Virus record (IMG/VR): IMGVR_UViG_3300017757_000022
Location: 1-45,649 of that record
Direction: 5' to 3' (one strand)
Origin: a virus
Length of the DNA: 45,649 bases
Below are positions 4,484 to 34,326 of the stretch, piece by piece. Position 1 is the first letter of the stretch. The number at the start of each line of letters is the position of its first letter. The translations under genes and the position numbers were made by a program. The notes under the pieces were generated by a model that saw only the letters and a list, made by a program, of their open reading frames with translations, ran no database searches and was not told the origin of the DNA.

Positions 4484-4490
4484 AAAAATC

Positions 4491-4673
4491 TTATCCGTTA
4501 TTATCTATACTGGGTTTGTAAGATTTCTTCTTGGTTCTACTCTTATAAACTCTCTTCTTAGATTCATCAACATCGGGTGTTGATTTATCATCTGCAACGT
4601 AACGACCTTTTGAGTCTCTTGCTCTGACAGTTTCGAAACCAAGGAAATCTGTAAATTTTGTCCAAAATCCCAT
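4491..4673 (-). CDS. Conserved T4-like marine phage protein, 60 aa
   Basis: A small basic protein starting MGFWTKFTDFLGFETVRARD, then SKGRYVADDKSTPDVDE, then a Lys/Arg-rich tail. I have seen this pattern in T4-like marine phages, but no function is known. A TATAAATA late box lies 15 nt before the ATG with GAGAGGA as ribosome-binding site, so it is probably late. It is followed 7 nt later by tRNA-Ala. Confidence 0.7.
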   Translation of the reverse strand: MGFWTKFTDFLGFETVRARDSKGRYVADDKSTPDVDESKKRVYKSRTKKKSYKPSIDNNG

Positions 4674-4687
4674 AATTTATCCTCTCA

Positions 4688-5302: not shown

Positions 5303-5534
5303 TTTCACTTACTGGTTCTCTAAAGATTGCATATGGCAATCCTTTCTTTTTTCTTCGTGCAAACTCATTAGATATTTTTTGCCTTAATTTCCCTTTACCC
5401 TTGGTACTTTTAATTTTGTTGTACTCATCAATCAGTTCTTGTAATGGTGTTGACTTGATATAGTAATGAGTTGTGGTTACTACTTTTGTTCCACGTGCAA
5501 CAGTTTTTTGGGTTGGTTTAAATTTTATCGGCAT
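5295..5534 (-). CDS. Hypothetical basic protein, 79 aa
   Basis: The start is ATG 5534 (MPIKFKPTQK), because AAGGAGAG lies just upstream. The upstream ATG in this frame would run back through the zinc-finger gene. The protein is strongly basic (KGKGKLRQK, FARRKKKG) with a central helix QELIDEYNKIK, which would suit binding to nucleic acid or to an acidic partner. Function unknown. It overlaps both neighbours. Confidence 0.6.
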   Translation of the reverse strand: MPIKFKPTQKTVARGTKVVTTTHYYIKSTPLQELIDEYNKIKSTKGKGKLRQKISNEFARRKKKGLPYAIFREPVSENG

Positions 5535-5694
5535 TTCTCTCCTTGGTTCGGGGTTTATTTCTAACATGCCAGTCGTGACTACAATATGCATCACAAAAGA
5601 CATGCACTGGTGACTGTTTAGGATTTGTGTGGTATTTGATTTTTTCCATTTCTAATTCTTTATCACATTCACTGCATTTAAGTTTCGTTGTCAT
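5518..5694 (-). CDS. Small zinc-finger protein, 58 aa
   Basis: From ATG 5694 (MTTKLKCSECDKELEM) the protein has CxxC at residues 7-10 and a second Cys pair in FCDAYCSHDW, so it is likely to bind one zinc. An AGAGGAAG ribosome-binding site precedes the ATG; a longer reading would overlap the dioxygenase more deeply. It may act on DNA, RNA or protein partners; its role is unknown. Confidence 0.6.
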   Translation of the reverse strand: MTTKLKCSECDKELEMEKIKYHTNPKQSPVHVFCDAYCSHDWHVRNKPRTKERNADKI

Positions 5695-6316
5695 GGGTTT
5701 GGTCTTCCTCTGCCCTTTTAAACCATATTGCAAAAACGTATCTCTCGCCTGCAAATATGGGTTCTACACTATGCCATCTCTCCGTTGAGTTGTTAAATGC
5801 TACCATAGTGCCTCTTCTTGGTAGTATTGTATGTCCTTCAACATTCAACCTACCCCCTTCGTATTCTTCATTCAACATGAAGATACAAGTTCCTGTGTCT
5901 TGCATATCAGCTGAGTCTTTATGCCAATTAAACATAGTATCCTTTGGATACTGCATTATAGTTGCATATGTAACCTCACCAAAATCTCTGTTCTTTGGCA
6001 TATAAGGTTCTACTAACTGCATCACTATTTCAAACTGTGATGTTCCCTGTTCTAAAACTGCAACATCATGACCAGTCTGTGGATGTGTATATCTCCAAGA
6101 CCTATCCAATGCAGATAAATCATCGGGACATATCTGTCCGTTCTCTTCTTGTTGTACATTCTCTACTGGTAATAAAGACAACTGTTCTATTATAACATCA
6201 CATGTGTCTATCGTCAATACACTATCTGCAATCATTAAGATATTAGAACTAGATTCAGTTTCTTCGACTGCATCCTTTTCTTGTTGAGATTGTACTACTA
6301 TCTTTCTTTTAGGCAT
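5678..6316 (-). CDS. 2OG-Fe(II) oxygenase, prolyl-4-hydroxylase-like, 212 aa
   Basis: A clear P4H-type dioxygenase core: H132-K-D134 (MFNWHKDSAD), strand CIFMLNEEYEGGRL, LPRRGTMVAFNNS, distal H182 (ERWHSVEP) and R192 (GERYVFAIWF). The first 60 residues are variable and low-complexity. Phage members of this family resemble PKHD-type hydroxylases. The substrate is unknown. It starts within the stop of the upstream dioxygenase gene (6309), so the two are translated together. Confidence 0.85.
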   Translation of the reverse strand: MPKRKIVVQSQQEKDAVEETESSSNILMIADSVLTIDTCDVIIEQLSLLPVENVQQEENGQICPDDLSALDRSWRYTHPQTGHDVAVLEQGTSQFEIVMQLVEPYMPKNRDFGEVTYATIMQYPKDTMFNWHKDSADMQDTGTCIFMLNEEYEGGRLNVEGHTILPRRGTMVAFNNSTERWHSVEPIFAGERYVFAIWFKRAEEDQTHDNET

Positions 6317-7010
6317 TGTTACGTCTATCGTTATTAGGATGGAAGAATCTTACATATGAGTATCTCCATGAGTCCTCACAATATTTCTTGTAGTCATCTA
6401 TCCATGCACCATGTAGTTTGTTACCTGTAAAGATAACACATGTATTGAATTTGGCTGGTATTATATAGTCTATCTCGAAGTCTTTCTCTACTTCATAGAG
6501 AACACCCATATGTTCCATGTTAGTAATCCATTCACCTTTATATACTGCAGTCCCGCCAGACTCTTCTTTGTCCATATAGACTAACATATTCAGTGTAGAT
6601 TTATCGTCGGGTGTAATGAATGCACTATCAATGTGTGGATAGTGTTGCATCTTTGGGTCAAACTCTGTTATGGTTTGGAAACAATTGAACTCATGAATCT
6701 GTTGATAGTCATAATCACCTTTCCACCAATATCGTCTACAGATGTCCAGTATTCTCTCGTTCTCATTGATACCTATTCTAGTAGGATGTCCTATCTTGTC
6801 TGTAATACGGCAGTCATTGTATACAGTACCATTAGGTGAATCTCTCTCTGTAGAATATTTCCACATAGGATATTGTCTACTAGATATGTGTTCGTATAGG
6901 TCTTCGGGGTTTTCAAAGAAATCGTGTATAGTAATAACACCATTCTCATATGTGTGTTCAAGCTTAGGGTTTATTGCATAAAGTTCATCTAGTGCGTATG
7001 TCTTTTTCAT
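6309..7010 (-). CDS. 2OG-Fe(II) oxygenase-fold protein, 233 aa
   Basis: The start chosen is ATG 7010 (MKKTYALDEL), because it overlaps the TGA of the small membrane gene (7007-7168) as ATGA. An earlier ATG at 7052 would run through most of that gene. Ligands are H126-I-D128 (HYPHIDSAF) and H200 (NKLHGAWID), with R216 or R221 near the end (WRYSYVRFF). A beta-strand NMLVYMDKEESGGTAVY is typical of the core. The substrate is unknown. Confidence 0.75.
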   Translation of the reverse strand: MKKTYALDELYAINPKLEHTYENGVITIHDFFENPEDLYEHISSRQYPMWKYSTERDSPNGTVYNDCRITDKIGHPTRIGINENERILDICRRYWWKGDYDYQQIHEFNCFQTITEFDPKMQHYPHIDSAFITPDDKSTLNMLVYMDKEESGGTAVYKGEWITNMEHMGVLYEVEKDFEIDYIIPAKFNTCVIFTGNKLHGAWIDDYKKYCEDSWRYSYVRFFHPNNDRRNNA

Positions 7011-7168
7011 AACCAATCCATTATAATGTTTACCATAATTAGAAGACCACATAGGATGTTAATTCCTACTATGATTGTTCTGATTATCGCAATCTTGTTC
7101 TCGTTTTGAGGGTTGTATCCATCCTCTTCGTCAAATGCTCCAAGAGCATGTTTCCATATCTCCCACAT
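7007..7168 (-). CDS. Small membrane protein, 53 aa
   Basis: The ATG at 7168 follows GGTGA about 5 nt upstream and lies just after the stop of the dioxygenase gene at 7171. The frame runs 53 codons to a TGA that overlaps the next ATG. The N-terminus is MWEIWKHALGAFDEEDGYNP, then a single apolar segment (IIRTIIVGINILCGLLIMV). Its layout (Trp-rich start, acidic linker, C-terminal helix) matches the protein at 7920-8117, so the two may be diverged paralogues on either side of one dioxygenase gene. Confidence 0.7.
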   Translation of the reverse strand: MWEIWKHALGAFDEEDGYNPQNENKIAIIRTIIVGINILCGLLIMVNIIMDWL

Positions 7169-7170
7169 AT

Positions 7171-7923
7171 TTATTCACCAAATACATCACTATAATATAG
7201 TGCATCCCCTGTTTCATTGTCATTAAGTTCTTGTCTATGTTTTAAGTTAAATGACACGGAATATCTGAGTTCTTCCTGTTCGCTATTTCCAGTGGGCGGA
7301 ACCGAGTGCATCAAATAAGACGGCCAAAGTAAGAAATCACCAGCCGATGGTTCAAACATCATTTCTGATTGAAACCCTTGACAACCTGTGAATCCCATAT
7401 TAGGTAAATCATCAAACTTAATCATATCTTCAGTACCATTATGTGCATATTGAGCTGCCATGTTTGGATTCCAAAACTTGATTGGTCTATCCGAATTGTT
7501 TACATAGTAGGTTCCACTGATATGTGAGTCAACATGATTGTGGACTTGATGGTCATGTTCTGCATCATATCTATTAATCCATGCAAACAGATGTATATCC
7601 TTTCTAGATAGATGTCTAACCTCTGTGTTGAATTGTGTACGTATGAATTCAATATAGGTATCTTTCATGATGTTAGCAAAGTCATTAAACCATGGTAACT
7701 TATGTGTCATTTCTCTTATATCATTATCAAAATAAGATGTGTAGTTACAGAGTTTGTCTTTGTTATCTTTGTCTGCAACCATATCAATGAGTCTATCTAT
7801 ATCTCTGATAATTTGGTCAGGCGGAAATCCTATGTGACCTCTTAGAAATGGTGTTGGGAATAATTGTAATATTCTATGTTGTGCAGGCTGATAAAAAGAC
7901 TGCTTGTATGTCGCTGGTTTCAT
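7171..7923 (-). CDS. 2OG-Fe(II) oxygenase-fold protein, 250 aa
   Basis: A PF13759-like dioxygenase starting with LFPTPFLRGHIGFP. The core has H128-N-H130 in the HNHVDSHISG segment, GDFLLWPSYLMHSVPP with distal H206, and R220 in RYSVSFNL. The fold and cofactors are confident; the substrate is unknown. It overlaps the upstream small membrane gene by ATGA (7920-7923), so they are co-translated. Confidence 0.85.
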   Translation of the reverse strand: MKPATYKQSFYQPAQHRILQLFPTPFLRGHIGFPPDQIIRDIDRLIDMVADKDNKDKLCNYTSYFDNDIREMTHKLPWFNDFANIMKDTYIEFIRTQFNTEVRHLSRKDIHLFAWINRYDAEHDHQVHNHVDSHISGTYYVNNSDRPIKFWNPNMAAQYAHNGTEDMIKFDDLPNMGFTGCQGFQSEMMFEPSAGDFLLWPSYLMHSVPPTGNSEQEELRYSVSFNLKHRQELNDNETGDALYYSDVFGE

Positions 7924-8117
7924 AATTTAATTGCCAATAGTAAAAGTATTGCAATGAGAATGACGTTTGACATGAAGATACCTATTGCAAGAATAGTGTG
8001 ATACCATATCCATCTTGTCTTGTATGCATTATCTACTGTAATGTCATCGGGGTCAGGCCCATGGTCAATATCAGTCTTGGGATTCTGTTTCCAAAGTATC
8101 TCCCACCACTTAGTCAT
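7920..8117 (-). CDS. Small membrane protein, 65 aa
   Basis: It starts MTKWWEILWKQNPKTD, followed by an acidic stretch (DHGPDPDDITVD) and a long C-terminal transmembrane helix (AIGIFMSNVILIAILLLLA). Its similarity in design to the 53-aa protein at 7007-7168 is noted there. The start overlaps the lipoprotein gene's end by 8 nt, so it belongs to the lysis and accessory operon. The function is unknown; it could be a holin-like or membrane-anchoring protein. Confidence 0.7.
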   Translation of the reverse strand: MTKWWEILWKQNPKTDIDHGPDPDDITVDNAYKTRWIWYHTILAIGIFMSNVILIAILLLLAIKL

Positions 8118-8670
8118 TCTTTTTCTCTATCTGTACTGCAACCCCCTTTTCGTTACCCTTGGGTGTTTTGATAGTTACGTCTCTGTAGTATACAACTACT
8201 TCTCCTAACTGTTTGATGTATCGTTTGAGTTCTTGCATATTTGCACTCATGACTTGATAATCACCTATAGTCGTTGCAACAAATACAACCTCACCACCAT
8301 TCTGTTCTTTCATTTCATCTAAGAAATAGTCAAGATGTGAGTAATCGACTGGCCACTCGGGATTGTCTCTGTCCTCAAGGTTACATGTCTTAGGACGTTT
8401 AAGTTTTTCTACTTGTACTCCGTCTTTCTCTTCGAATCTTTTAGGGTCATACGATAATGTTGCAACACATAGATTGTCTTTCTTTGCCTCAGATACGACA
8501 TACCAATTAGGTGATGTCATTTCAATAGGTCTTGGAAGTGTAGGTTGAATTATATCTATTTCTAATGGTTTAGATACTATCTCTACTTGTTTCGTTCCAA
8601 TTAACGAGCATCCACTAATCGTTATCAGTGCGATTAGACTCATCAAGGTTATATATTTCCTTTGTATCAT
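8110..8670 (-). CDS. Lipoprotein, probable outer-membrane spanin, 186 aa
   Basis: From ATG 8670 (MIQRKYITLMSLIALITISGCS) there is a signal sequence with lipobox ISG-C, so it would be lipidated and moved to the outer membrane. The gene begins inside the end of the i-spanin gene (56-nt overlap), the arrangement of Rz/Rz1 pairs. GAGG lies 9 nt before the ATG; the longer reading would need a GTG. At about 165 mature residues it is larger than classical o-spanins. The C-terminal helix MQELKRYIKQL could contact the i-spanin. Confidence 0.65.
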   Translation of the reverse strand: MIQRKYITLMSLIALITISGCSLIGTKQVEIVSKPLEIDIIQPTLPRPIEMTSPNWYVVSEAKKDNLCVATLSYDPKRFEEKDGVQVEKLKRPKTCNLEDRDNPEWPVDYSHLDYFLDEMKEQNGGEVVFVATTIGDYQVMSANMQELKRYIKQLGEVVVYYRDVTIKTPKGNEKGVAVQIEKKND

Positions 8671-9004
8671 CTTCGATTCCCTCAAATACTCTATCCGTTG
8701 CACGATTGACCTTTCCTGTCATTATGCCAGGCTTTGCAACTGCAAGAGCGCTTAAATTATGTCTTTGGAATATTTGTAGATACTCCGCCTTTTCTGCTTC
8801 AATCGATGCATTTTTACGACTCATGTTCTGCAATGCTTTCCCTTGTTTTTCAAAGTTCTCTTTCATCACTTCCATGGCACGTTGTTGTTCTTCTACTGCA
8901 GCTTCTAACTTAATGTTATTTTGTGTAAGTGTTTGATTCTCATTATACAAAAAGAAACAAAACAATCCCACTGCTACTAGAAGACCCATAGTTAACTGAT
9001 TCAT
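8615..9004 (-). CDS. Inner-membrane spanin (Rz-like), 129 aa
   Basis: One N-terminal transmembrane helix (MGLLVAVGLFCFFLYN) is followed by a long coiled coil from about residue 22 to 80 (NIKLEAAVEEQQRAMEV...). A conserved-looking end, LAVAKPGIMTGKVNRATDR, recalls Rz-type spanins (AxxKPGLIExRxNxAT). It would span the periplasm and, with the lipoprotein, disrupt the outer membrane at lysis. Its ATG overlaps the stop of the upstream gene as TAATG. Confidence 0.75.
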   Translation of the reverse strand: MNQLTMGLLVAVGLFCFFLYNENQTLTQNNIKLEAAVEEQQRAMEVMKENFEKQGKALQNMSRKNASIEAEKAEYLQIFQRHNLSALAVAKPGIMTGKVNRATDRVFEGIEDDTKEIYNLDESNRTDND

Positions 9005-9276
9005 TAATCTATCTCCTCAATTTTTACTTCAAGTCCTAGAACTGAACGTATTTCTATAACGTTCTTAGTTTCATAGTCTTTGAATTTTAAATGTTTCGGT
9101 CTATTTACCATGATATTTCTTGACATATATTCCGACTTGTACATGTTACCACCCTCAGATTGTCTGTAAATGGTAATCTTGTATTCTGCTTTAAAGAGAT
9201 GTTTAATCCATGTCCAAATGAACCAAAAAAATCTCTTCAGTAATTCTTTTATCTTATTCCATAGTTTGTTAAGCAT
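9004..9276 (-). CDS. Conserved hypothetical, membrane-associated N-terminus, 90 aa
   Basis: The N-terminus is an amphipathic, Trp/Phe/Lys-rich helix (MLNKLWNKIKELLKRFFWFI) likely to sit on the membrane. It is followed by a beta-rich part (AEYKITIYR ... NVIEIRSVLGLEVKIEEID). Similar small proteins occur in T4-like marine phages without a known function. It directly precedes the spanin pair and overlaps the dioxygenase gene by 8 nt, so it may be a lysis accessory factor; that is inference. Confidence 0.6.
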   Translation of the reverse strand: MLNKLWNKIKELLKRFFWFIWTWIKHLFKAEYKITIYRQSEGGNMYKSEYMSRNIMVNRPKHLKFKDYETKNVIEIRSVLGLEVKIEEID

Positions 9277-9892
9277 AGTCTATCCATCCTGTTACTATAT
9301 ATTTCTCTCCTTTGAGAGGTGGATTACCTCTATGCATATGAGTGAAACCAGCAGGCCACAATACTATGTCACCTTTTTTGGGTTTGATACGTAATGATTG
9401 GTATAGGAATTCTAACTCTCCACCTTCCTCAACGTCATTAAGGAAGATTGCCCATGCAAGTAGGGATTTAGAACTAGATGGACAATTACAGTGTTCACAA
9501 TGCCAGATATGATATCCTTGTTGTGGTAATGTCTTTTGAATTTTTGCACCACTGACCATAAGACCTCTGTAGTTATCTTGGACTGGGTACTTTTGAAACC
9601 ACTCATCGATAACACCATCGGGTTCTTCAAAGATAGATAGTATTCTATTCATCTGACTACCGAAGTATGACTCGGGTACTGAAGTCATGCTGATTGCGTC
9701 ATCACTCTTTTTTGTTATTAAAGTTGTGTCGTAATGAGCTCTTGGAAGTGTTAAACCTCTGGCTTCACATTTTTTGTATATTCCCATGACATAGTCTATG
9801 AACTCGTCGTCTGTCCAACCACGATAAAGGAGAACATGTTCTCCAAGGTCTTCTATGTGTCTATCTTCTGCAAATCTATTTTGTGTTTCCAT
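9269..9892 (-). CDS. 2OG-Fe(II) oxygenase, HxE type, 207 aa
   Basis: The start is the ATG at 9892 (METQNRFAED); the longer frame needs a TTG. The core is recognisable: GYHIWHCEH gives an H131-C-E133 ligand pair, then AIFLNDVEEGGELEF, KKGDIVLWPAGFTHMHRG with distal His 185 or 187, and GEKYIVTGW. The usual 2OG-binding arginine appears as lysine 197, a variation worth noting. Its substrate is unknown. It follows a terminator and a late promoter, so it may begin a separate transcription unit. Confidence 0.75.
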   Translation of the reverse strand: METQNRFAEDRHIEDLGEHVLLYRGWTDDEFIDYVMGIYKKCEARGLTLPRAHYDTTLITKKSDDAISMTSVPESYFGSQMNRILSIFEEPDGVIDEWFQKYPVQDNYRGLMVSGAKIQKTLPQQGYHIWHCEHCNCPSSSKSLLAWAIFLNDVEEGGELEFLYQSLRIKPKKGDIVLWPAGFTHMHRGNPPLKGEKYIVTGWIDYA

Positions 9893-9902
9893 AATATATA
9901 CC

Positions 9903-9926
9903 AAAAAGTAAGGATTATTCCTTACT
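9903..9926 (-). terminator. Rho-independent terminator
   Basis: On the minus strand AGTAAGGA (9926-9919), loop ATAA, and TCCTTACT (9914-9907) form a perfect 8-bp stem followed by five T (9907-9903, the first being the last base of the stem). It follows tRNA-Arg and precedes the dioxygenase gene, so it ends the nucleotide-metabolism transcription units that run into the tRNA. Confidence 0.8.
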
Positions 9927-14398: not shown

Positions 14399-16700
14399 CG
14401 CAATCTTCCTCATCTTCACTTGGTGCAGAATGCATCATTGGTGGTATGTAATCATTAGACGCTGAATTAGGGTCTGTAACTACATCCTCTACTTTACCAT
14501 CCATTGTGTTTTGGTAATATGATGTCTTCCATCCATACTTGTATGTGTTCAACATGTCTTGAGCCATGACTGATACTGGTACTTCACCCTTGTCATAATT
14601 TTCGGGGTTGTAAGACCAGTTACCACTAATCGCTTGGTCAAAGAACTTTTGCATCACTGCAAGTACTTTAATATATCCTTCATTACTAGGCATATCCCAT
14701 AGTAACGTGTAATTGTTTTTAAGTATACTATACTGTGGAACTACCTGTTTTAGGGTTCCTTTTTTACTTTTCTTGACTGAAAGGTAATCTCTAGGGGGTT
14801 CTACTCCATTCGTTGCATTAGAGACCACGCTAGAGGACTCTGAAGGCATCTGTGCAGTAAGAGTTGAGTGTCTTAGACCATGTACTTTGATGCATGTTCT
14901 AAGTTTATCCCAGTCACATTGTAACTCATTTGGTGTGATACTGTCAACATCCTTTTTATAGGTATCGATGGGTAATATTCCTTGTGCATACTTAGTTTTA
15001 TGGAAGTATTCACATGCACCTTTCTCGGATGCAATCTGATTAGATGATTTTAATAACTCGTACTGGAATCTCTCGGTTAGTTCATGTACTAATCTATGTG
15101 CTTCGGGGTCATCGTACTTAACCTTATTCTTTGCAAGGAAATGTGCAAGACCAATGTATCCTATTCCTAATGAACGTCTTGCTCTTGTTGATTTCTCAGC
15201 TGCAATCACTGGATATTTCTGATAGTCTATTAGTTCTTCTAACCCTCTAACTGCAAGGTCACATAAAGTACTAAGTTCATCAAAGTTCTTTAAGATACCT
15301 ATGTTAACTGCAGATAGGATGCACAACGCAATCTCACCTTCCCCATCAATATGACTGATAGGGTCGGTGGGTAGTGTTATCTCTTGACATAAGTTACTCA
15401 TGTTAACCTTGTCGATAAAACTACTATGCGTATTGCAATGGTCTATATTCATAATGTAAATACGGCCAGTCTCTGCTCTTTCTTTTAATAAACTTGTAAA
15501 TAATTCTCTTGCACCAATCTTCTGTTTAGGAATACTGGTTGCACGTTCATACTTTTCATAGAGTTCATCAAACTCTGGCGTTCCAAACGCCTCGTATAAA
15601 CCTTTAACATCATGTGGTGAGAATAATGATATATCTTCATTCTTTAAGAATCTCTTATAGAATAGTTCTGATATCTGTATAGAGTAATCTAACTTTCTTA
15701 CTCTGTTGTCCTCTGTTCCTTTATTGTTTTTAAGTACGAGGATATCTTCGATTTCTTGATGCCAGATTGGGAAATGTACCGTTGCACTTCCACCTCGGAC
15801 GCCATTCTGTGTGCAACTCCTAACCGTTGCTTCAAATTTCTTAAGAAAAGGGACAACTCCAGTATGTTGAACTTCTCCACCACGTATCTTTGACCCAATT
15901 CCTCTAATTCTTCCTGCGTTAATTCCAATTCCAGCTCTTTGTGCAACATATTTTCCGATTGCCATGTCACTCGAAAAGATTGAATCGAGTGTGTCGTCTG
16001 AGTCAACCAAGACGCATGATGCAAATTGTCTGAGTGGAGTTCTGACCCCTGCCATGATGGGTGTGGGTATGTTAATTTTAAACTGTGATATGGCATCATA
16101 ATATCCTTTGACATAACTTAATCTACTCTCTTTATAATCTTTAAATAACGTCATTGCAATCATCATGTACATGAACTGTGGTGTTTCATATAATGTGTTA
16201 CTTGACCTGTCTTGTACCAAATACTTGTCCACAATTTGTTGTAGACCAGCATATGTAAAGTCTAAATCTCTTTGGTGTCTTATAAACCTATTACACTGAT
16301 TTATTTCATCTTCAGTATAATAATTAAGAATGTCTTTATCATACACACCGTAATCTATATTTCTATTGATAATATCCAATAATGGTGGATAGATTTCTGA
16401 GTCTTTCCACTTGGTGTTAAAGACCTGTTTCTGTACACCAAATAGTAATAATCTTGCAGCTACAAACTGATAGTTTGGATTGTCCAGTGAAATTAAATCA
16501 CTTGCACTTTTTACAAGGATTTGTTGTATGTCTTTTGTTGTAATACCATCATAAAATTGTAAACCACTATTCATCTCGACGGATGATTCTGATACACCTG
16601 TAATATCTTTACAAGCTTTCTCCATCATTCTATGAATCTTTTCCAAGTCAATGTTCATTTTTGAACCGTCAGACTTGATTACCTTGAACTCTGCATTCAT
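14382..16700 (-). CDS. nrdA: Ribonucleotide reductase class Ia, alpha subunit
   Basis: A full-length 772-aa NrdA. Residues 1-90 form an ATP-cone (FKVIKSDGSKMNIDLEKI). The catalytic cysteines include C229 (LRQFASCVLVD), the NLCQEITLP motif and LCILSAVNIG. The tail ends CDACAI, the C-terminal CxxC that shuttles electrons from glutaredoxin. It reduces ribonucleotides for phage DNA synthesis. The start overlaps the primase stop (ATGA). Confidence 0.95.
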   Translation of the reverse strand: MNAEFKVIKSDGSKMNIDLEKIHRMMEKACKDITGVSESSVEMNSGLQFYDGITTKDIQQILVKSASDLISLDNPNYQFVAARLLLFGVQKQVFNTKWKDSEIYPPLLDIINRNIDYGVYDKDILNYYTEDEINQCNRFIRHQRDLDFTYAGLQQIVDKYLVQDRSSNTLYETPQFMYMMIAMTLFKDYKESRLSYVKGYYDAISQFKINIPTPIMAGVRTPLRQFASCVLVDSDDTLDSIFSSDMAIGKYVAQRAGIGINAGRIRGIGSKIRGGEVQHTGVVPFLKKFEATVRSCTQNGVRGGSATVHFPIWHQEIEDILVLKNNKGTEDNRVRKLDYSIQISELFYKRFLKNEDISLFSPHDVKGLYEAFGTPEFDELYEKYERATSIPKQKIGARELFTSLLKERAETGRIYIMNIDHCNTHSSFIDKVNMSNLCQEITLPTDPISHIDGEGEIALCILSAVNIGILKNFDELSTLCDLAVRGLEELIDYQKYPVIAAEKSTRARRSLGIGYIGLAHFLAKNKVKYDDPEAHRLVHELTERFQYELLKSSNQIASEKGACEYFHKTKYAQGILPIDTYKKDVDSITPNELQCDWDKLRTCIKVHGLRHSTLTAQMPSESSSVVSNATNGVEPPRDYLSVKKSKKGTLKQVVPQYSILKNNYTLLWDMPSNEGYIKVLAVMQKFFDQAISGNWSYNPENYDKGEVPVSVMAQDMLNTYKYGWKTSYYQNTMDGKVEDVVTDPNSASNDYIPPMMHSAPSEDEEDCDACAI

Positions 16701-17734
16701 ATTTTCTTGTACTCCATAAGTTTTAAGTTTGCCGAAAGACCTTCAAATGTACAAGCATTAATGATATCTATTATTTCACTTTGACTCAATCCACTCATTA
16801 TCATATCGTTTATATCTTTACAGTTTGCAATACGTCTGTCGTCCCATATGCAAACTTTATATCCTAACTCAATTACTTCCTTAAGCTTCTTGAGTATCTC
16901 TTCATTACGAGGTTCATTATCATAAATGATAATCGCATTATCTTTTATACCATCGTCTATTTTCTTAAAGTCACTACCCCCGACTGCAATACTATTGGGT
17001 AGGAATAAACTATCTATAGGGCCTTCGGTAACATAGATAGTTTTTGTCTTGTCCACATTTTCTATGTTATAGATGAGTGGAACATCATCTAGGAGCCTCA
17101 TTGTAAGGTATCGTAATGGTGAGTCATTAATTGCTCTACCCGATACTCCTACGAGTTCCCCATCCTCTTTAAAGAATGGTAATATTATTCTTGGGTCTGT
17201 CCCAAGAACTCTGTCTTTATACTTCTCATGAAGAAGACCAAGAGTTTGTGCTGACTCTACAAACCATAGAGTGTCAATCTTGTCTTCGGGAACTTTCCTG
17301 TTCTGTAGATATTCTCTTGCAACTTGTTTCTCTCTAGCAGGAAACATAATCGCTGACAAGTCAACTTTAATCATATTTAGTAATTCTGTTTTTGGAGTGA
17401 ACTTGAATTCATTTGCACTTGGCATCTTATGACCCGAGGCATGTTTTTTAGGTTTCTTACCACTCTCTGTTAACCATTCTTTAATGTACTCTTTATGTAG
17501 TACAGGGAAATGGTCTTTGATAAAATTTACACTAGATGTGGATTTACCACAATTGTGACATTTGTATATAAAACTTTGTTCTACAACGAAATGATACCCA
17601 CGTGCTTTGTGTTTATTCTTTTGAGAATCTCCACAATATAAACACCTGTGATTCAGTGTTGTATCACCCTTCCATTTTGCAAGCTCTAGAGAACCCACAC
17701 ACATAGAAAGATATTTTCTTTCTAACCATAGCAT
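16697..17734 (-). CDS. DNA primase, T4 gp61-like, 345 aa
   Basis: An N-terminal zinc finger (HRCLYCGDSQ ... YKCHNCGKS) is followed by a TOPRIM domain with the acidic motifs YVTEGPIDSLF and IIIYDNEPRN. It would make the RNA primers at the fork together with the gp41-type helicase at 32926-34326. The start chosen is ATG 17734 (MLWLERKYL), exactly 6 nt after a TATAAT box; the upstream ATG at 17749 would lie in the promoter. It heads the primase-nrdA-dioxygenase-nrdB-queC-grx-zinc-ribbon operon. Confidence 0.9.
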   Translation of the reverse strand: MLWLERKYLSMCVGSLELAKWKGDTTLNHRCLYCGDSQKNKHKARGYHFVVEQSFIYKCHNCGKSTSSVNFIKDHFPVLHKEYIKEWLTESGKKPKKHASGHKMPSANEFKFTPKTELLNMIKVDLSAIMFPAREKQVAREYLQNRKVPEDKIDTLWFVESAQTLGLLHEKYKDRVLGTDPRIILPFFKEDGELVGVSGRAINDSPLRYLTMRLLDDVPLIYNIENVDKTKTIYVTEGPIDSLFLPNSIAVGGSDFKKIDDGIKDNAIIIYDNEPRNEEILKKLKEVIELGYKVCIWDDRRIANCKDINDMIMSGLSQSEIIDIINACTFEGLSANLKLMEYKKI

Positions 17735-17740
17735 ACATTC

Positions 17741-17769
17741 ATTATACATGAATACATGCTAAAATACAA
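17741..17769 (-). promoter_or_regulatory. Sigma-70-type early promoter, leaderless
   Basis: TTGTAT (17769-17764), a 17-nt spacer and TATAAT (17746-17741), then GAATGT and ATG at 17734. The -35 box is weak (3 of 6 matches). The spacing to the ATG is the same 6 nt seen at other early genes. Confidence 0.6.
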
Positions 17770-19652: not shown

Positions 19653-20453
19653 CTATCTCTTGATGTTTCTACGCAAGAGAGTATATAAAGCATTTGGTTC
19701 ATACTTTTTATTTCTTTTATATCTCTTCTTGAAACCAATACTACTTGCATCGGTTGAAACAGCTGCACCAGTGGCATTCATAGGTGCATCTTCTTTTAAT
19801 TTTCCGAAGTTCATGAATTCCATGAGTTCGGATGCAAGTTTTACTCCTGCTTCATAATCTGAAGGATAGTGTAATCCTGCTATAACTCTACCAAACCCAC
19901 TAATCTTTGCACCGTTCATTAATCCAGCACGGTGTTGTGGGTATAATCTACTATAATACTCTGCAACTACAAATGGTTGGACTGTATGTCCACTTGGGTA
20001 TGAAGGTGTCTTTGCAGTATCGGTTACATATCTTTCAAAATCCATACCTAATTCTTCTGCAACTTGATATGGTCTTGCACGATTGAAGTGATTCTTATGA
20101 TGTTTGATTATAGGCTTACACTGGTCTTCAAGATACTCTACATCATCTACATCATAATCTAAGTCCTCTTTATTCATATATTCTTTGATATAATAAGTTG
20201 AATCTTCATCACATTTAAGATATTCTTCTTTTTGTTCTTCTGTTGCACCTGTAACGTGTTTCTGTATTTCTTGCAATTCTTTAACAACTGCATTACCTTT
20301 AGGAAACTGTCCTAACATTATAGTCTCCCAACCTTCACTCCATATCTCTAGGTTTTTGTACTTTGCTTTTTTAAGTTCTTCTTGTGGTTTGAAGACCATA
20401 TGGTCTATGTCTTCATCTAGAAAAACTGAGAGGTGTTTATTAGTATACGTCAT
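19653..20453 (-). CDS. PAP2-family acid phosphatase, 266 aa
   Basis: All three PAP2/haloperoxidase motifs are present: FNRARPYQ (KxxxxxxRP-like), PSYPSGHT and GRVIAGLHYPSD. The family removes phosphate from phosphatidic acid, pyrophosphates or other phosphoesters. There is no obvious signal peptide or membrane span, so this looks like a soluble class A type enzyme. The Lys/Arg-rich C-terminus (KKRYKRNKKYE) suggests nucleic-acid or virion binding. It overlaps the next upstream gene by 14 nt. Confidence 0.8.
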   Translation of the reverse strand: MTYTNKHLSVFLDEDIDHMVFKPQEELKKAKYKNLEIWSEGWETIMLGQFPKGNAVVKELQEIQKHVTGATEEQKEEYLKCDEDSTYYIKEYMNKEDLDYDVDDVEYLEDQCKPIIKHHKNHFNRARPYQVAEELGMDFERYVTDTAKTPSYPSGHTVQPFVVAEYYSRLYPQHRAGLMNGAKISGFGRVIAGLHYPSDYEAGVKLASELMEFMNFGKLKEDAPMNATGAAVSTDASSIGFKKRYKRNKKYEPNALYTLLRRNIKR

Positions 20454-21553: not shown

Positions 21554-21952
21554 TTAGACCAATGAACCGTATACTTTGTAACTGTTGTTCATTAACCTTT
21601 CGTATTTCACATTAAGTGAAACTAGTTTTTCTTCTTTTTCGAACTCATCATGTGGTGTATCCACTGATTTTCCAAATGTTTCACCATATCTTGAGAAAGA
21701 AAGGTCAAACTCTCCACTTTCGTTGAACTCAACATCATCATGTTTCATCATTGCAAGTCCAAGTTGTTCGAGTTTTGCCTTCATTTGTTCGACTGCAGCT
21801 TGTGGGTTCATGTATTCTGAACTTGCTGTATGTCCTAAGACAGCATTGATTTTAGCCTTAACTTCTGCATCATCAATGTCGTGTGGTATTTCTGTTGAAG
21901 AAAGTCCACCAACTTGTTTTGTTTCTGTTATGAATTGACTGAATTTTTTCAT
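21554..21952 (-). CDS. Late protein with capsid-targeting-like N-terminus, 132 aa
   Basis: The N-terminus MKKFSQFITE|TKQ closely resembles the T4 capsid-targeting sequence of internal protein III (MKTYQEFIAE, cut after E10 by the prohead protease), with the glutamate also at position 10. The remainder is an unrecognised small domain (DAEVKAKINAVLGH ... FDLSFSRYGETFGKSV). If the tag works, the protein is packaged inside the head and injected. The tag is seen in the sequence; packaging is inferred. Confidence 0.65.
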   Translation of the reverse strand: MKKFSQFITETKQVGGLSSTEIPHDIDDAEVKAKINAVLGHTASSEYMNPQAAVEQMKAKLEQLGLAMMKHDDVEFNESGEFDLSFSRYGETFGKSVDTPHDEFEKEEKLVSLNVKYERLMNNSYKVYGSLV

Positions 21953-27517: not shown

Positions 27518-28191
27518 TAATCTTCCAAGTCTACCTCTTCGAACATAGGCATAAGTGCTTTAACGACTTGTCCCATGACTGCTGGGTCTATATTTGCAAT
27601 AAACTCTGATTCTTTTCTTTTAAGATTTTTGATGTTTTTAATTTTGTTGTGTATATTAGTATACTTTGCTTCTTCAAGGTTTTTACCTTCATCAATCATA
27701 CTGTAAGAAGACATACCAAATTCTTTATGTATTCTATTGAGTAATTTCTTTTGGTCTTTTGGTTTAACTCCTAAAATAATGAGTGCGTTTCTACCGTCTT
27801 TTTTATATTTGATACCCTCGTCATCAAGCATCTTCATTACTTTTGCTCTATATCTAGAGTCTTGTGAAATACCAAATATTTCATTTACTTCTTCAAGTTC
27901 TTCACCTATAGGGACACAGTTTGGTACTTGTTTACCATTTTTCATCTTGAACCCTTTCTGAACATAACCATCCCAACATGCTTCTTCTAGTTTCTCTTCA
28001 TTATAAGGAAACCCTTTTAATGGATTAGGATACTTAGAAGAGAAATGTTTCTTCTGTCTCTGTTCATTGACCACTTTAACTTGTGATAGATACTTCTCTA
28101 CTTGTTGGCCTGGTGTATCGTCTTGATACGCCTTTAAAGTTTCATCGGTACCCACTTCGTGTACTCCGTTGTTTGTTTTATTTCCACTCAT
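27517..28191 (-). CDS. Late virion-associated protein, 224 aa
   Basis: The middle holds LEEACWDGYVQKGFKMKNGK then VPNCVPIGEE, a Cys/Trp-bearing motif seen in T4-like marine phage virion proteins. After it comes a domain (KVMKMLDDEGIKYKKDG ... LGVKPKDQKKLL) and an [ILV]xEG site (MIDEGKNLEEAKY) suitable for prohead-protease cutting. The N-terminus is hydrophilic. Function unknown, most likely internal head. Confidence 0.6.
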   Translation of the reverse strand: MSGNKTNNGVHEVGTDETLKAYQDDTPGQQVEKYLSQVKVVNEQRQKKHFSSKYPNPLKGFPYNEEKLEEACWDGYVQKGFKMKNGKQVPNCVPIGEELEEVNEIFGISQDSRYRAKVMKMLDDEGIKYKKDGRNALIILGVKPKDQKKLLNRIHKEFGMSSYSMIDEGKNLEEAKYTNIHNKIKNIKNLKRKESEFIANIDPAVMGQVVKALMPMFEEVDLED

Positions 28192-29141
28192 TTGATACCT
28201 CTTAGTTTTAAAATAGTATTATAACTTTCTGATTTCGTTTCTGCTTTCTTTCTGTCTGCATCACGTTTTGCTTGAATTTGTTTGTCTGCTGTCTCTTTCT
28301 CTTTCTGACCATCGATTCTTTCTGTTTCTCTCTCGTGTCTTTTAGTTAAAGCTTCAAGTTCATCCTCTTGTCTTAGTTTAAGTCTTTCAAGTTCACCTGC
28401 CTGTTTTGCTTTTAACTCCGCTGCATCTACAGCTGCATCTTCGAATAGTTCATCACCTTCTAGATTGTCACCGAACTTAAGAAATAGTTTACCTTTCTCT
28501 TGTTTCTTATCGGTAACTTTATGTTTAATCATTGCACCGATTGTGTTGATGAGACCAATACCTTTTTCGGGATTCTTTTTGAGTTCATCTTCCATTTTTT
28601 GACCAACCTTTTTCATGATTAAATCAATAATATCACGAGCACTGGTAACTAGTTTTCCTTCTTGGACTGACTCAGATGCACCAGCTTTCTTTGCAAGGTC
28701 TTTATCTGCACCACCCCATGTTCCTTTACCTTTAGTAATGAAAGAGTTTACTCTTGCATGTCCCCATTGCTCTGGAGTAGTGCCTGGCCTATGACCAGTC
28801 TTCCATGCAGCCACACCTCTGTTATAAACCTGTTGTAGGATACCTTTGGAAATACCCGATTTGTCAGCTTTCTTTGCAAGTGATTTACCAGCACCTTCGT
28901 ACATATCTTTATACTTCTTAGTGTGTTTCGAAGGTTTGGTATCTGCATTATGGTCGCCAGGTGCAGGGCCGTCTTTCTTCTGTGCAAAATGAGCTGCACG
29001 TTTTTGTTTAGTAGACTTAGACATTTCGTCACCATCAGCATCCTTTGCGTAATACTTAGATGGTTGAGTACCTTTACGGTCTTCAATATCTTTGTCTTGT
29101 TTGACTTTTCTTTCGTTAAGTATAGAGTCTAATATGTCCAT
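28188..29141 (-). CDS. Late protein with a conserved phage domain (DUF5824-like), 317 aa
   Basis: The central block KSGISKGILQQVYNRGVAAW and GHRPGTTPEQWGHARVNSF followed by TKGKGTWGGADKDLAKK is a conserved phage module (I believe DUF5824, function unknown). Before it are Lys-rich segments (KYYAKDADGDEMSKSTKQK). An [ILV]xEG site (SVQEGKLV) follows, then a coiled coil (LKAKQAGELERLKLRQEDE). Its ATG is 5 nt after a GATAAATA late box. Probably packaged or core; unproven. Confidence 0.65.
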   Translation of the reverse strand: MDILDSILNERKVKQDKDIEDRKGTQPSKYYAKDADGDEMSKSTKQKRAAHFAQKKDGPAPGDHNADTKPSKHTKKYKDMYEGAGKSLAKKADKSGISKGILQQVYNRGVAAWKTGHRPGTTPEQWGHARVNSFITKGKGTWGGADKDLAKKAGASESVQEGKLVTSARDIIDLIMKKVGQKMEDELKKNPEKGIGLINTIGAMIKHKVTDKKQEKGKLFLKFGDNLEGDELFEDAAVDAAELKAKQAGELERLKLRQEDELEALTKRHERETERIDGQKEKETADKQIQAKRDADRKKAETKSESYNTILKLRGIK

Positions 29142-29146: not shown

Positions 29147-29154
29147 TATTTATC
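29147..29154 (-). promoter_or_regulatory. T4-type late promoter, leaderless
   Basis: GATAAATA on the minus strand followed by GTACT and ATG (29141), a 5-nt gap. It overlaps the end of the nucleotidyltransferase-kinase gene. Confidence 0.6.
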
Positions 29155-30433
29155 GTTTTTTAGCATCTAATTCTGCTTGTTTCCAGTTGAGGGCTTGTTT
29201 GTTACTAGGGAATGAACCACTCCAACCTAGAAGTTTTGTGTATAGTTTGAGAGATTTCTTTTCTAAAGATTTAAGGTCTTCATCATTTGTAATCTCTACA
29301 TAATCTCTACCAAATATCTTTTTCAATGCATCTGCATTTTTTCTAGATTTATCCCAGTCTTGTTTAACTATTTCTTTGGGTAATTTTCTAGGTCTCATTT
29401 CGTTTCTTTTTTGTGCGTTGTCTAATGATGCACTGACAAATAACATCTTAGACTCATATCCTAGTGCATCCAATGATTTCTTATATTTTTGTATTTTAGA
29501 TATGTTTGCACTAGTAGTATCAAATATCATTCCAAGTCTACCACCAATATAGTTGTTCATATTCTTTGTAGTGATATTCTTTGCTTTTGCACGGATAGGG
29601 TCAACTTTATCAAAGTCTGCACCACGTAAATCAAGTGACATTCCTGCCTTCTTTAATCCATTTTCAAAAGCTGCATCTGTATTAACTAACTTTAAACCAA
29701 GTGCTTTTAGTGATAACTTTTGTACCACTGTTGACTTACCACTTCCAGGCCCACCACTAAAGAACACTGCTTTGAATGTACCTTGGTCATAGACTCCTTC
29801 ATTGATTAAATCTTCAATCATATAATCGGGTAGTGTGGATTCTACGATACCCATTCCTTTACGGATATCTTTGTATAGTTGTTCTACATCTTTTTTATTT
29901 CTAGATGGAACACCTTGTGCAAATGCTTTAAAGTCACCAACTTCTGCAAGAGCTCTTAACTTAGATGCACTCATTCCACTTAGGTCATCTGCATCGGGGT
30001 CTCTCTCTCCTGCTGATACAATTTGTATATCATCAAATTTGTAGTAGCCGTGTCTTGCTTTTACTCCGTTGTATTTCTTGAGTAACATTTCGAACTCTTT
30101 GATTCTATCTGAACCAACTACCATCTTTACACGTTTAAAATTTTGTCTATGTAATTCATTTGCAATCTCGAATACAGTACGTGCTTGTACGTCTGCAACT
30201 ATCTTACCAAAGAACTTCTTAAGATATCTTACTTTGAGTTTATGGTCTAATGGATTTTTCTTTTTGTCGTTTGAATGAGATGAGAAAAGCATTGGTTGAT
30301 AACCACCGCTGGTTTCTTTTTTAAGCTTGTCTACTAATTTTGCATGACCTGTTGTGGGTGGATTGAATCTACCGAATGTAAATACAACACCCTTGTCTTT
30401 TGCTTCTGTTAAAAATTTACCGAATTGTTTCAT
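29150..30433 (-). CDS. Nucleotidyltransferase-kinase fusion with capsid-targeting-like N-terminus, 427 aa
   Basis: Residues 1-10 (MKQFGKFLTE) look like a T4 capsid-targeting sequence, with likely cleavage before A11. Residues 15-165 form a cytidylyltransferase/NMN-adenylyltransferase-like domain: TFGRFNPPTTGH (HxGH-like, H30), VVGSDR and SGMSASKLR (like the SSTxIR signature). Residues about 220-400 are a P-loop kinase with GGPGSGKST (227-235). The domain order recalls NadR (NMNAT plus ribosylnicotinamide kinase), but the kinase also resembles zeta-toxin/polynucleotide kinases. It could make NAD or act on RNA ends, delivered with the DNA. Overlaps the ligase-like gene by one base. Confidence 0.75.
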   Translation of the reverse strand: MKQFGKFLTEAKDKGVVFTFGRFNPPTTGHAKLVDKLKKETSGGYQPMLFSSHSNDKKKNPLDHKLKVRYLKKFFGKIVADVQARTVFEIANELHRQNFKRVKMVVGSDRIKEFEMLLKKYNGVKARHGYYKFDDIQIVSAGERDPDADDLSGMSASKLRALAEVGDFKAFAQGVPSRNKKDVEQLYKDIRKGMGIVESTLPDYMIEDLINEGVYDQGTFKAVFFSGGPGSGKSTVVQKLSLKALGLKLVNTDAAFENGLKKAGMSLDLRGADFDKVDPIRAKAKNITTKNMNNYIGGRLGMIFDTTSANISKIQKYKKSLDALGYESKMLFVSASLDNAQKRNEMRPRKLPKEIVKQDWDKSRKNADALKKIFGRDYVEITNDEDLKSLEKKSLKLYTKLLGWSGSFPSNKQALNWKQAELDAKKR

Positions 30434-31635
30434 TACTTATCCCAATTTTTGATTGCAGTGAAGTTGTTAAATGCAAATTCCATACGGTCTACAAGTTTAA
30501 CAGCTTTACCTGTTCTGTCGATTGCAACGTAACCTTCGGGGTTAACTGCTTCGAATCCGTTTGCAGTCTTTTTGAATGTTCCGATACTCTTTACTCTATT
30601 TAGGGCAACAATAATAATCTGTTTTGCAACTACCAAGTGACCCATGAAACTAGTAAGATTAGTAATAAACTTTTTAAGACCTCTAAGTTCTCTTGAAAGG
30701 TCTTCACCAATCTCTGTTTTAATTAATTTGTGTTTCTCTGTTTTAACACCACCAACAACTTTATCTTTCCAATATCCTTCAAAGTGTTTAATGTACCCAT
30801 CGAATGATGGATTGAACTTACCTTGTCTGATTAATGAGTTACAGTAAGTCTTATAGGATGCACCAGCACCTTTCTTTGTGATAGTCATCTGTATATCTTG
30901 AAACTTCTGTAAGTCTTTCCTAGTAATACCATGGAAAGCTTTACCTGTTGCAGTCAACTCTTGTGTTAGTTTGAGAGTCTCCTTTGAAGTCATTGAACTA
31001 TTACCACTGACATCTTTGTATGATGCATCATCTATCCATACATCACTACTAGAACCTAATTTAGATATGTTTGCACCAAATGATGCACTCAATCCTTCTA
31101 TAGTACTACCCTCGTATGTGGTGTGGAATACAATGCCCATCTTAGAACCTGCTATAACTTTACCAAGGTTTGAGGATTCATCCACTGCATATAAAATTGT
31201 GTTTGGTTGAAATGTTATGAATGATTTACCATCTATCTTTTGTGTTTTCTTATCGTTTGTATACATCAAGTCACCTTGCATGACATTTGACCAAGATAGT
31301 TTAGATAGATATTTGAATGATGTTAAGAATTTCTCTTTGAGTTGTCCACTTAGTTCTTCTGCATTTTTTATATCATGTTCAGAAGTGTAGAACAATGGTG
31401 TCTTATTGAATAATGATTTCTTTGCAACAAAGAATTGACCAGTCTCGGGGTGTTTTCCACAGAAAATAGCAGGAGCTCCATCCCATTTAACAGTCATGTT
31501 TACAGAACTAGAAGAATTACCCTTCATCATGTCTCTTAGACCTTGAAGAAAGTTAATTGCACCACGACCACCATCAATTCCTTGATTGATGATTTCGTCT
31601 TCTAAATGTTCTAAATGTAGATTTTTTGCACTCAT
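30433..31635 (-). CDS. Ligase-like covalent nucleotidyltransferase, 400 aa
   Basis: I see the nucleotidyltransferase motifs of RNA/DNA ligases and capping enzymes: motif I K50-W-D-G (VKWDGAPAIF), a motif III-like QGDLMY, motif IV E367-G (NPEGYVAID) and motif V K377-A-V-K380 (GKAVKLVDR). K50 would carry AMP. The family is conserved in T4-like marine phages without proven activity. It lies directly upstream of the nucleotidyltransferase-kinase gene, so a joint RNA-repair or nucleotide-transfer role is plausible. The promoter is early-type with a 7-nt gap to the ATG, and a late box sits just upstream. Confidence 0.65.
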   Translation of the reverse strand: MSAKNLHLEHLEDEIINQGIDGGRGAINFLQGLRDMMKGNSSSSVNMTVKWDGAPAIFCGKHPETGQFFVAKKSLFNKTPLFYTSEHDIKNAEELSGQLKEKFLTSFKYLSKLSWSNVMQGDLMYTNDKKTQKIDGKSFITFQPNTILYAVDESSNLGKVIAGSKMGIVFHTTYEGSTIEGLSASFGANISKLGSSSDVWIDDASYKDVSGNSSMTSKETLKLTQELTATGKAFHGITRKDLQKFQDIQMTITKKGAGASYKTYCNSLIRQGKFNPSFDGYIKHFEGYWKDKVVGGVKTEKHKLIKTEIGEDLSRELRGLKKFITNLTSFMGHLVVAKQIIIVALNRVKSIGTFKKTANGFEAVNPEGYVAIDRTGKAVKLVDRMEFAFNNFTAIKNWDK

Positions 31636-32293: not shown

Positions 32294-32301
32294 TATTTAT
32301 A
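32294..32301 (-). promoter_or_regulatory. T4-type late promoter
   Basis: TATAAATA on the minus strand, 10 nt before the ATG at 32283; exact match to the T4 late consensus. Confidence 0.65.
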
Positions 32302-32312
32302 GCATCTATATA

Positions 32313-32963
32313 TTATCCAGTAATAACAGTATCTTCAATTCTCATGATATCAGTTCCCTTTATTCTAATGTTACCCGATAATGTTATCCTAGGATTAGTA
32401 CTTAAGTTTGGTGATACTGCATGATAGATGTGTGATGGAAAGAAGTATAGAGTTCCTTTACCTTTTAAAGGTGGTACATAATCTACTGAGGTTCCGTAAG
32501 CAAGTAAAAACTCTTTTAAACAAACTTCACTATTAGAAGCATGTCTGTTCTTAAATACAATATGTGAGTCTCCAGCTTGATGTATGTAACACCATGAGAA
32601 ATCAGAAAACTTATCACCTTGATGGTCATGTGCATCTTGGAATCCATGTTCTTCATATACATTAATCCAAGGAACTTCTAACACACTTTTCAACATTTGA
32701 TTTGGGCCTAGAGATTCTAGATAGTGTTGAAATTCATCAAATACAGTATCAGTTACAACATTGTAATCTACATTATTATTCTCTTCCACACCTTGTGATG
32801 TTTTACATTTACTGAATGTAAATTCTTCTTTACATAACTCATCAATGTCTATGGTTTTAAACCATTCATCTATACCGTCTGAATTTATTGTCACTGCTGT
32901 TATAGGGTGTCCCCATAACAAATCGTCAGACCTTAAACTCTGAGAAGTCTCTTCGTTGTCCAT
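32313..32963 (-). CDS. 2OG-Fe(II) oxygenase-fold protein, 216 aa
   Basis: The start is taken at ATG 32963 ([10 protein letters not shown]) or the adjacent 32966, with AGAGGAAG upstream; the longer frame would run deep into the helicase gene. Ligands are H112-D-H114 (DAHDHQGDKF) and H181 (HIYHAVSPN) with R192 (PRITLSGNIRI), the PF13759-like pattern. It is translated with the helicase gene, whose last codons it overlaps. The substrate is unknown; its place with replication genes is notable. Confidence 0.75.
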   Translation of the reverse strand: MDNEETSQSLRSDDLLWGHPITAVTINSDGIDEWFKTIDIDELCKEEFTFSKCKTSQGVEENNNVDYNVVTDTVFDEFQHYLESLGPNQMLKSVLEVPWINVYEEHGFQDAHDHQGDKFSDFSWCYIHQAGDSHIVFKNRHASNSEVCLKEFLLAYGTSVDYVPPLKGKGTLYFFPSHIYHAVSPNLSTNPRITLSGNIRIKGTDIMRIEDTVITG

Positions 32964-34326
32964 CATTTCTTCCTCTATCAAATACAGGAACATCATCATT
33001 CTCAACGGCTGAGTCAATGAGTTCTTCCTGTGCTTCTTGTTCACAGTCATAGAGTTTCATTCTACTTCTGTCTACACCAATGACAAACCTTTTAAATACG
33101 GTTGGGTCATTGTATCTATTCTTTAATTGTTTTACTACCATTTGGTCTAGTTCTTCTAGTTCATCGGATGTAATTAACGCAAACATAAAGTCTGCAGTCG
33201 CTGGTAATCCAAATGATTCTGAAGTATCTGTTAGTTCCACATCTGTAGAACCATAACCACTACGTGTTGTTTGTGTTGCACTCATGATTGGTACATCAAA
33301 CTCTACTGCAAGTCCTCTGAGTTCCTCTGCAATACTCTTAACTAGAGTATAAGAGTTTGCACCAGCTCCTGGCTTGACTCTTGCACTTGCACAGATATTT
33401 AGGTAATCGATATAAATCATATCGGGTTTAAAATCTTTCTTGATATTCAACTCTTGAAGTAGATGTCTGAAGTGACCTACATGAGCTGATGCAGTTGGAT
33501 ATTCTTTTACAATAAGTTTACCTTGTGTCTTCTCTTTGATTTTATCAATCTTTTTATCAAACTGTTTCTTAGATAAGTCGGGTAAATCTTTCATAGGAAT
33601 GTTCAATGTATTTGAATCAATCCTCTCTGCAATTCTTTCCTCTGACATTTCCAATGTAATGTAAAGTACATTCTTGTTCATCATTAAGTTTGCAGATGCC
33701 ATATGACACATGAACAATGACTTACCAACACCAGTACCAGCAAGACATATGTTTAGAGTTTTGTTTGGTAATCCACCTTTGGTAACTTTGTTGAAATATT
33801 CTAAATCAAATGGAAGTTTCTCTTCTTCAGTGTGATAAAAATCAAATCTCTCATCTGAGTTTTCAATGAAATCGTGACCAATGTTAGTGTCAAACGATAC
33901 AGATAAAGCTTCTTTTAAAAGGTCGGGTATTTCTCCAGTCGAACGTTGGGACTTTTTGTCGATGACTTCGATACTGTCCATGACTGCAATATAGATTGCT
34001 CTATCTTGACACCACTTTTCAGTTTCTTCCACCAACCAATCGATTGGTGTGTCTTCTTTGTCCTTACTAATACTATCTACAATAGTTTTTGCACTAGATA
34101 AAACACTGTCATTGAGTGACGAGTTGTTATCTAGATTTATGAGAAGTGCTTCCACTGTAGGTGGTTTAGTGTACTTGTCGAAATAGGAACCTACTTCGTT
34201 GAACACGGTCTTCTCGTCCGACTCGGAGAAATACTCTTCCTTAAGGAATGGTATTACCTTCCTTGCAAACTCTTCACTCTGAACTAGGTTGTTCAGTATC
34301 GTCTGTTCTAGTCTCACTGTTTCCAT
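32926..34326 (-). CDS. Replicative DNA helicase, T4 gp41-like, 466 aa
   Basis: A RecA-fold helicase of the DnaB/gp41 type: Walker A at residues 196-203 (LAGTGVGKS), then [17 protein letters not shown], Walker [11 protein letters not shown], and a C-terminal arm that contains [13 protein letters not shown]. It unwinds the template in the 5'-3' direction with the gp61-type primase. The N-terminal domain (about residues 1-150) is helical, as in T4. It overlaps uvsX by 53 nt. Confidence 0.92.

Follow-up and report, generated by a model that had tools for sequence, protein, structure and literature searches.

The internal proteins (IPs) of phage T4 and its ADP-ribosyltransferase Alt carry an N-terminal propeptide; gp21 cuts them, and they are packaged inside the head, from which they are ejected. 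In IPIII, mutagenesis assigned targeting mainly to residues 4 and 7 of this capsid-targeting sequence (CTS) and processing to residues 8 and 10 (PMC9026906), and the T4 propeptides span 10 to 19 residues in the IPs, 65 in gp23 and 10 in gp24 (PMC9026906, PMC9958956). IPII and IPIII start MKTYQEFIAEA, in which positions 4 and 7 are aromatic, position 8 is hydrophobic and position 10 is Glu; IPI starts MKTFKEFTSTTTPVSTITEA; and gp24 starts MAKINELLRES, its 10 residues being removed at the site LLRE/S (slashes mark cuts, observed or predicted). Residues 58-66 of gp23 read AFGSFLTE/A, with the cut after residue 65, and T4's own cut sites have the form [IL]xE.

In cyanophages, an early genomic survey reportedly counted a cytidylyltransferase/NMNAT-like protein (T4-GC190) among the core proteins of its 16 cyanomyoviruses, and homologs are reported by mass spectrometry in CsCl-purified or otherwise purified virions of S-SM1 (S-SM1_190, the T4-GC190 homolog; PMC3037559), S-SCSM1 (ORF91, gp91; PMC9602691) and S-CREM2 (ORF154; PMC10665884). 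The last was identified by 3 unique peptides only, and its authors remarked that highly expressed proteins might co-purify (PMC10665884); that paper names S-CBWM1 and S-SZBM1 too, and no NMNAT terms were found in the S-SZBM1 paper. No mention of a capsid-targeting sequence in these cyanophages was found in the available text of the literature on the homolog, or by searching for that combination.

The window (the whole 45.6-kb stretch of viral DNA analysed here, a fragment without the structural region) encodes a 427-aa protein starting MKQFGKFLTE/AKDKGVVFTFGRFNPPTTGH (fuller N-terminal sequence, MKQFGKFLTEAKDKGVVFTFGRFNPPTTGH), whose parts and neighbours are listed in Table 1. The earlier note on this DNA had proposed it as a possible head-packaged fusion of an NMN adenylyltransferase-like and a kinase domain. 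The two-domain reading is right, because the Pfam families found are CTP_transf_like at aa 19-125 and Zeta_toxin/AAA_33 at aa 217-386, whereas the label "NMN adenylyltransferase" goes beyond what can be said from sequence alone. In the AlphaFold model (mean pLDDT 67 overall), the nucleotidyltransferase (NTase, aa 12-198) is well folded, with pLDDT ~85, the kinase is only moderately predicted, a weak part of the model that counts against the packaging reading, and the tag is of low confidence; the disorder predicted for tag and linker would speak in favour of a packaged, tag-trimmed protein. A wrong start codon was considered and is unlikely, because relatives keep the start and the tag together.

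Table 1. Features of the tagged locus and its surroundings in the window.
Feature	Position	Strand	Basis and remarks
427-aa tagged nucleotidyltransferase-kinase	29150..30433	minus	ORF with ATG start, Pfam domains and IMG/VR relatives
Capsid-targeting-type propeptide MKQFGKFLTE	30404..30433	minus	predicted cut Glu10/Ala11; strict pattern scan, IPIII-mapped positions, pLDDT ~42 at residues 1-10
Nucleotidyltransferase domain, aa 13-198	29840..30397	minus	motifs FGRFNPPTTGH and GMSASKLR; Pfam CTP_transf_like, structure matches, invariant columns
Disordered linker, aa 199-221	29771..29839	minus	protease-type site DLINE/GVYD (Glu212/Gly213); pLDDT ~35
P-loop kinase domain, aa 216-412	29198..29788	minus	GGPGSGKS, RNxxRxRKLP lid; Zeta_toxin/AAA_33, PDB profile matches
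Second tagged protein, 132 aa, MKKFSQFITE/T	21554..21952	minus	tag at 21923-21952; strict pattern scan
DUF6267 neighbour	30433..31635	minus	untagged here, tagged in other lineages; motifs KWDG, EGYV, KLVDR
317-aa DUF5824 neighbour	28188..29141	minus	starts MDILDSILNE/R; module fused to NTase in HTVC008M and Melnitz
T4-type late promoter CTATAAATA (perfect)	32294..32302	minus	upstream of operon
PAP2-type phosphatase	19653..20453	minus	PF01569 E 6.5e-11; aa 213-233 mimic N-arm of near relatives' major capsid protein

The proposal that this protein and a second one of 132 aa (MKKFSQFITE/TKQ; fuller N-terminal sequence, MKKFSQFITETKQ) carry a tag of the T4 IPIII type proved stronger than could be known from the sequence when it was made. 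All four positions mapped in the IPIII signal fit in both proteins; in the 427-aa tag, F4 and F7 stand at the targeting positions and L8 and E10 at the processing positions, followed by A11. The predicted cut FGKFLTE/A is a near repeat of FGSFLTE/A in gp23, with 7/9 residues equal (QFGKFLTEA vs AFGSFLTEA). Of the 471 window ATGs opening frames of at least 50 codons, only those of these two genes passed a strict T4-IP pattern scan; T4 itself (1-150 kb), scanned alike, gave IPII, IPIII and gp61.1. With a pattern of exact positions (aromatic residues at 4 and 7, a hydrophobic one at 8, Glu at 10) and background composition, P is 1.1e-4 per start, so that ~0.007 matches are expected in the window against 2 observed. 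A looser pattern, applied to 1,678 distinct ORFs of related phages, matched 137 of 1,979 N-terminal Met (6.9%) vs 26 of 9,465 internal Met (0.27%), figures that are enrichments and not independent trials because the ORFs share descent. After removal of the NTases, 61 ORFs in more than 10 unrelated clusters were left, some of them probably by chance, and tag-like starts were found on DUF6267, p132, a basic protein, a nucleotidase and others. One N-terminus across unrelated families is as expected of a targeting module. Among 47 distinct 5' ends, chosen by pattern, Glu10 is encoded by both GAA and GAG, and P2 and P1' vary.

T4 gp61.1 itself (54 aa; gene 61.1, L095:18966-19130, minus) starts MKTFKEFIKE/D, in agreement with the strict CTS pattern, and its gene lies within the gp41-gp61 interval, as does the marine locus. 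In addition, head-tag-like starts were noticed on two nucleotidase-like proteins of the HAD type (L172:5354, MKTLEHFLYE/Q; L174:2852, MKKTLIQFLYE/S).

Of the encoded relatives found by scans of IMG/VR, 113 are close and several hundred others more distant; the first 80 IMG/VR loci gave 48 distinct relatives, and 640 phage records matched. By pattern, 94 of the 105 NTase ORFs (~90%) have a tag-like start, with Leu4 at CTS position 4 in some relatives, and in relatives of the 132-aa protein the tag is conserved and the residues after Glu are variable. The architecture behind the tag varies: NTase-kinase here, NTase plus DUF5824-type modules in HTVC008M and Melnitz, and, in cyanophage homologs, an NTase with a different C-terminal part and without the kinase. 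In these cyanophage homologs, ~25 to 100 unrelated residues separate the tag from the NTase; thus, the tag lies outside the fold. A gp21-type prohead protease is encoded in three long relatives, and near relatives that encode gp21 also have LxE/A at the expected place in their major capsid proteins. A few homologs that lack the tag, and HTVC008M, whose N-terminus is MKTLKELLRKK, count against packaging through the tag.

The three homologs reported in virions all present the strict tag, namely, MKKFSAFLNE/A in S-SM1 GC190, MKSFLQFLKE/A in S-SCSM1 gp91 and MKNFSSFLTE/A in S-CREM2 ORF154. Products of the neighbouring genes were likewise reported as virion proteins, specifically gp89, 90, 92, 93, 95 and 97 in S-SCSM1 (PMC9602691) and ORF155, 156 and 160 in S-CREM2 (PMC10665884). 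The window shares the interval of the cyanophage locus, with a helicase (32926-34326), the tagged locus and a primase (16697-17749), identities that were taken from sequence and from gene order in L082-L094. The 427-aa protein shares a homologous NTase, the tag and the locus with T4-GC190, which differs from it in the missing kinase domain and the other C-terminal part; the mass-spectrometry evidence concerns such kinase-less homologs. One of the S-CREM2 virion proteins, gp156 (L087:12013-12726), shows a pol-beta-type nucleotidyltransferase-like motif (GGNANYNYTPYSDIDLHLVV).

Packaging into the head by a T4-type tag, as first suggested from the letters alone, is therefore well supported by the four mapped positions, the modular tag, the gp23-like cut site and the tagged homologs reported in virions by mass spectrometry. 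We hold it to be quite probable that the 427-aa protein is packaged by way of a T4-type targeting propeptide with the tag removed, a judgement that excludes the second cut described below and the chemistry, and it is likely an internal protein packaged in the head of a Kyanoviridae-like phage. Judging from the position-by-position fit to the IPIII signal, the first ten residues would act as a capsid-targeting propeptide by binding to the core of the prohead. A gp21-type prohead protease would cut after Glu10, perhaps after Glu212 too, giving a free NTase and a free kinase in the head. Homologous proteins have been shown by others in virions of S-SM1, S-SCSM1 and S-CREM2. By analogy with T4 Alt and the IPs, the packaged proteins would reach the host cell along with the DNA and be active there before phage gene expression; such delivery of the 427-aa protein is probable, because the tag is present and relatives were found inside purified phage particles. 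In contrast to the T4 IPs, which are small proteins, and to Alt, an ADP-ribosyltransferase, the protein carried here is a conserved enzyme of two domains, and a second cut-like site lies in its interior. Polyvalent proteins are likewise multidomain, virion-delivered proteins for host conflicts (Iyer et al. 2017, PMC5512222), but their typical domains were not found in the 427-aa protein, which is small and CTS-tagged; the available text of that paper and of the NARP1 paper holds nothing on the 427-aa family.

The second site, LINE/G in the linker between the two domains, had been missed in the earlier note and is new here. Both alignments keep its Glu and Gly without exception, and the extracted linker sites are nearly always [LIV]xE/G, with at least 9 different residues at x (P2). 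Stand-alone kinases show unrelated upstream sequence ending at the same site (MIPFILKE/G in HTVC008M, QYINE/G in L171). The site and the nearby starts of the stand-alone kinases suggest that the head protease may split the 427-aa protein in two, and an internal cut after Glu212 is plausible from these alignments, although the conservation of LIxE/G could possibly have a structural reason instead. Across the proteins of the locus, gp21-like sites showed a modest enrichment (Z ~2.4), which is not a main argument.

Regarding the neighbouring genes, the invariant KWDG, EGYV and KLVDR of DUF6267 resemble ligase motifs I, IV and V, and weak structural matches (VIA) were found to TbREL1, T4 Rnl2 and DNA ligases, with Z ~5 over ~160 residues; its profile had no matches in the PDB, and Foldseek gave none below 0.001. 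DUF6267 is tagged in several lineages (e.g., MLSFNKFLTE/QKNTH), and PHROG 455 matches both DUF6267 and NTase-kinase genes, which are adjacent. We found no paper naming DUF6267, DUF5824 or DUF7207. In the nearest relatives, the late promoter upstream of the operon is kept at ~-667 relative to the start of DUF6267; in many others it is absent. Overall, TATAAATA is not over-represented in the window (5 vs 4.3 expected) and only its placement is notable, as four of the five sites lie in the 7.4% of intergenic DNA, for which shuffling predicts 0.54, and the fifth is found where a gene ends, shortly ahead of the next start. The five sites (1195, 4689, 18459, 32294 and 45632) are all upstream of gene starts and in the right orientation, and by their sequence and placement they are likely T4-type late promoters; late transcription fits head proteins.

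The PAP2-type phosphatase may possibly present a second head-anchoring device, as suggested by the mimicry of a capsid arm in its sequence. Its C-terminal part, KLKEDAPMNATGAAVS, aligned with the capsid-protein N-arm of near relatives, NLEEAAPLNATGSAVA, with a score of 59 vs 47 for the best of 60 shuffles, and ACG-2014b and S-SCSM1 have genes at this position that mimic the arm of their own phage (68 and 83 vs best shuffles of 45 and 54). The same-place gene of Melnitz is similar to the arm, although not above shuffles, and that of S-SCSM1 is reported as a virion protein. Several 2OG-Fe(II) oxygenase-like genes were also observed (1853-9904 and 32313-33050), the one at 32313-33050 confirmed by Pfam and the others recognised by eye. 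PADLOC returned marginal matches only.

What the enzyme does is clear as a class of chemistry, with an NMNAT/PPAT-like NTase and a PNK/PSTK/zeta-like kinase. The acceptor of the nucleotidyl group moved by the NTase would be a small phosphorylated molecule, most likely, if tentatively, in an NMN-type reaction supporting NAD, and the kinase would act on a sugar or RNA hydroxyl. Invariant columns of the NTase are F-G-R, N-P-P, G-H and S-A-S..R, and its (H/T)xGH motif, common to other families of the fold, is TTGH here and the classical HKGH in S-CREM2. An assignment of the NTase substrate from sequence was attempted and dropped, because the search of its profile against the PDB gave no significant family. 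For the kinase, Zeta_toxin/AAA_33 matched 27/27 members, and in the 427-aa protein AAA_33 scored above its cut-off, which places it in the AAA_33 class of P-loop kinases; AAA_28 matched 11/27, weakly. Fold and sequence searches do not discriminate NMN-, pantetheine- or RNA-directed activity, and NAD repair and RNA repair are offered here as hypotheses only.

The first of these, possible although doubtful and compatible with packaging, is that the packaged NTase is an NMN adenylyltransferase that rebuilds NAD against NAD-depleting defences or aids early infection. Cyanophage authors have proposed a role in NAD synthesis for the homolog. The best full-length Foldseek match is H. influenzae NadR (E 8e-6), an NMNAT plus ribosylnicotinamide kinase of equal domain order, and NCBIfam TIGR01526 (NadR) matched with E 2.8e-4, at 20 bits vs a cut-off of 341, so that the curated family score is not reached; non-significant matches to archaeal NMNAT and NadR profiles align FGRFNPPTTGH with GRFQPFHKGH. 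However, the similarity to NadR is remote, with TxGH instead of HxGH and a kinase nearer another P-loop class, PPAT/CoaD is an equally good structural match of the NTase (VIA Z 13.8 vs 12-13 for NMNATs, 13.0 at best), and no other NAD-salvage genes were recognised in the window.

The second, which we regard as rather improbable, is an RNA (or DNA) end-repair kit in which 5'-OH ends would be healed by the kinase and sealed by DUF6267, the pair corresponding to T4 Pnkp and RNA ligase but delivered by the head. The kinase matched PDB profiles of PSTK (5e-5), zeta toxin (1e-4) and T4 polynucleotide kinase (1ly1, E 0.003), and the ligase-like motifs, the adjacency of the two genes and their shared PHROG described above point the same way; nevertheless, the ligase matches are of low Z, the homologs proven in virions are NTases without the kinase, and the NTase is left without explanation. 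A further reading is a polyprotein processed in the head at the tag and at LINE/G. Its NTase and kinase would form, with DUF6267 as a ligase-like partner and with further enzymes of the operon that are tagged or anchored by a capsid arm, a nucleotide or RNA repair kit acting on entry; this appears similarly improbable.

It is quite unlikely that the protein is an ordinary cytoplasmic enzyme with a merely CTS-like N-terminus and that the virion reports are contaminants. The co-purification caveat of the S-CREM2 authors and the existence of natural tagless homologs, starting directly at the NTase (L068/L069, L120, L122), would agree with it, but detection came from three phages with the same locus, the tag occurs on unrelated families, and the cut site nearly repeats that of gp23. 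Finally, a CoA-type or other small-molecule nucleotidyl transfer, with a PPAT-like NTase and a dephospho-CoA-kinase-like domain as in CoA synthase, is most unlikely: PPATs use TxGH and the top VIA matches are PPAT/CoaD and, for the kinase, CoaE (Z 12.0), but sequence profiles favour an NMNAT-type GR motif and a PNK/PSTK-type kinase and gave PPAT and dephospho-CoA kinase no significant support, and a clear need in early infection is missing.

In conclusion, earlier cyanophage work, in its available text, detected these proteins in virions repeatedly, gave no route into the particle and suspected co-purification, and the tag supplies such a route for packaging of the 427-aa protein and its relatives. 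The tag predicts exact mature N-termini, which can be checked in existing spectra, and gives a simple sequence rule for spotting injected enzymes in abundant marine phages, suggesting that the T4 packaging code may reach distant relatives with enzymatic cargo.
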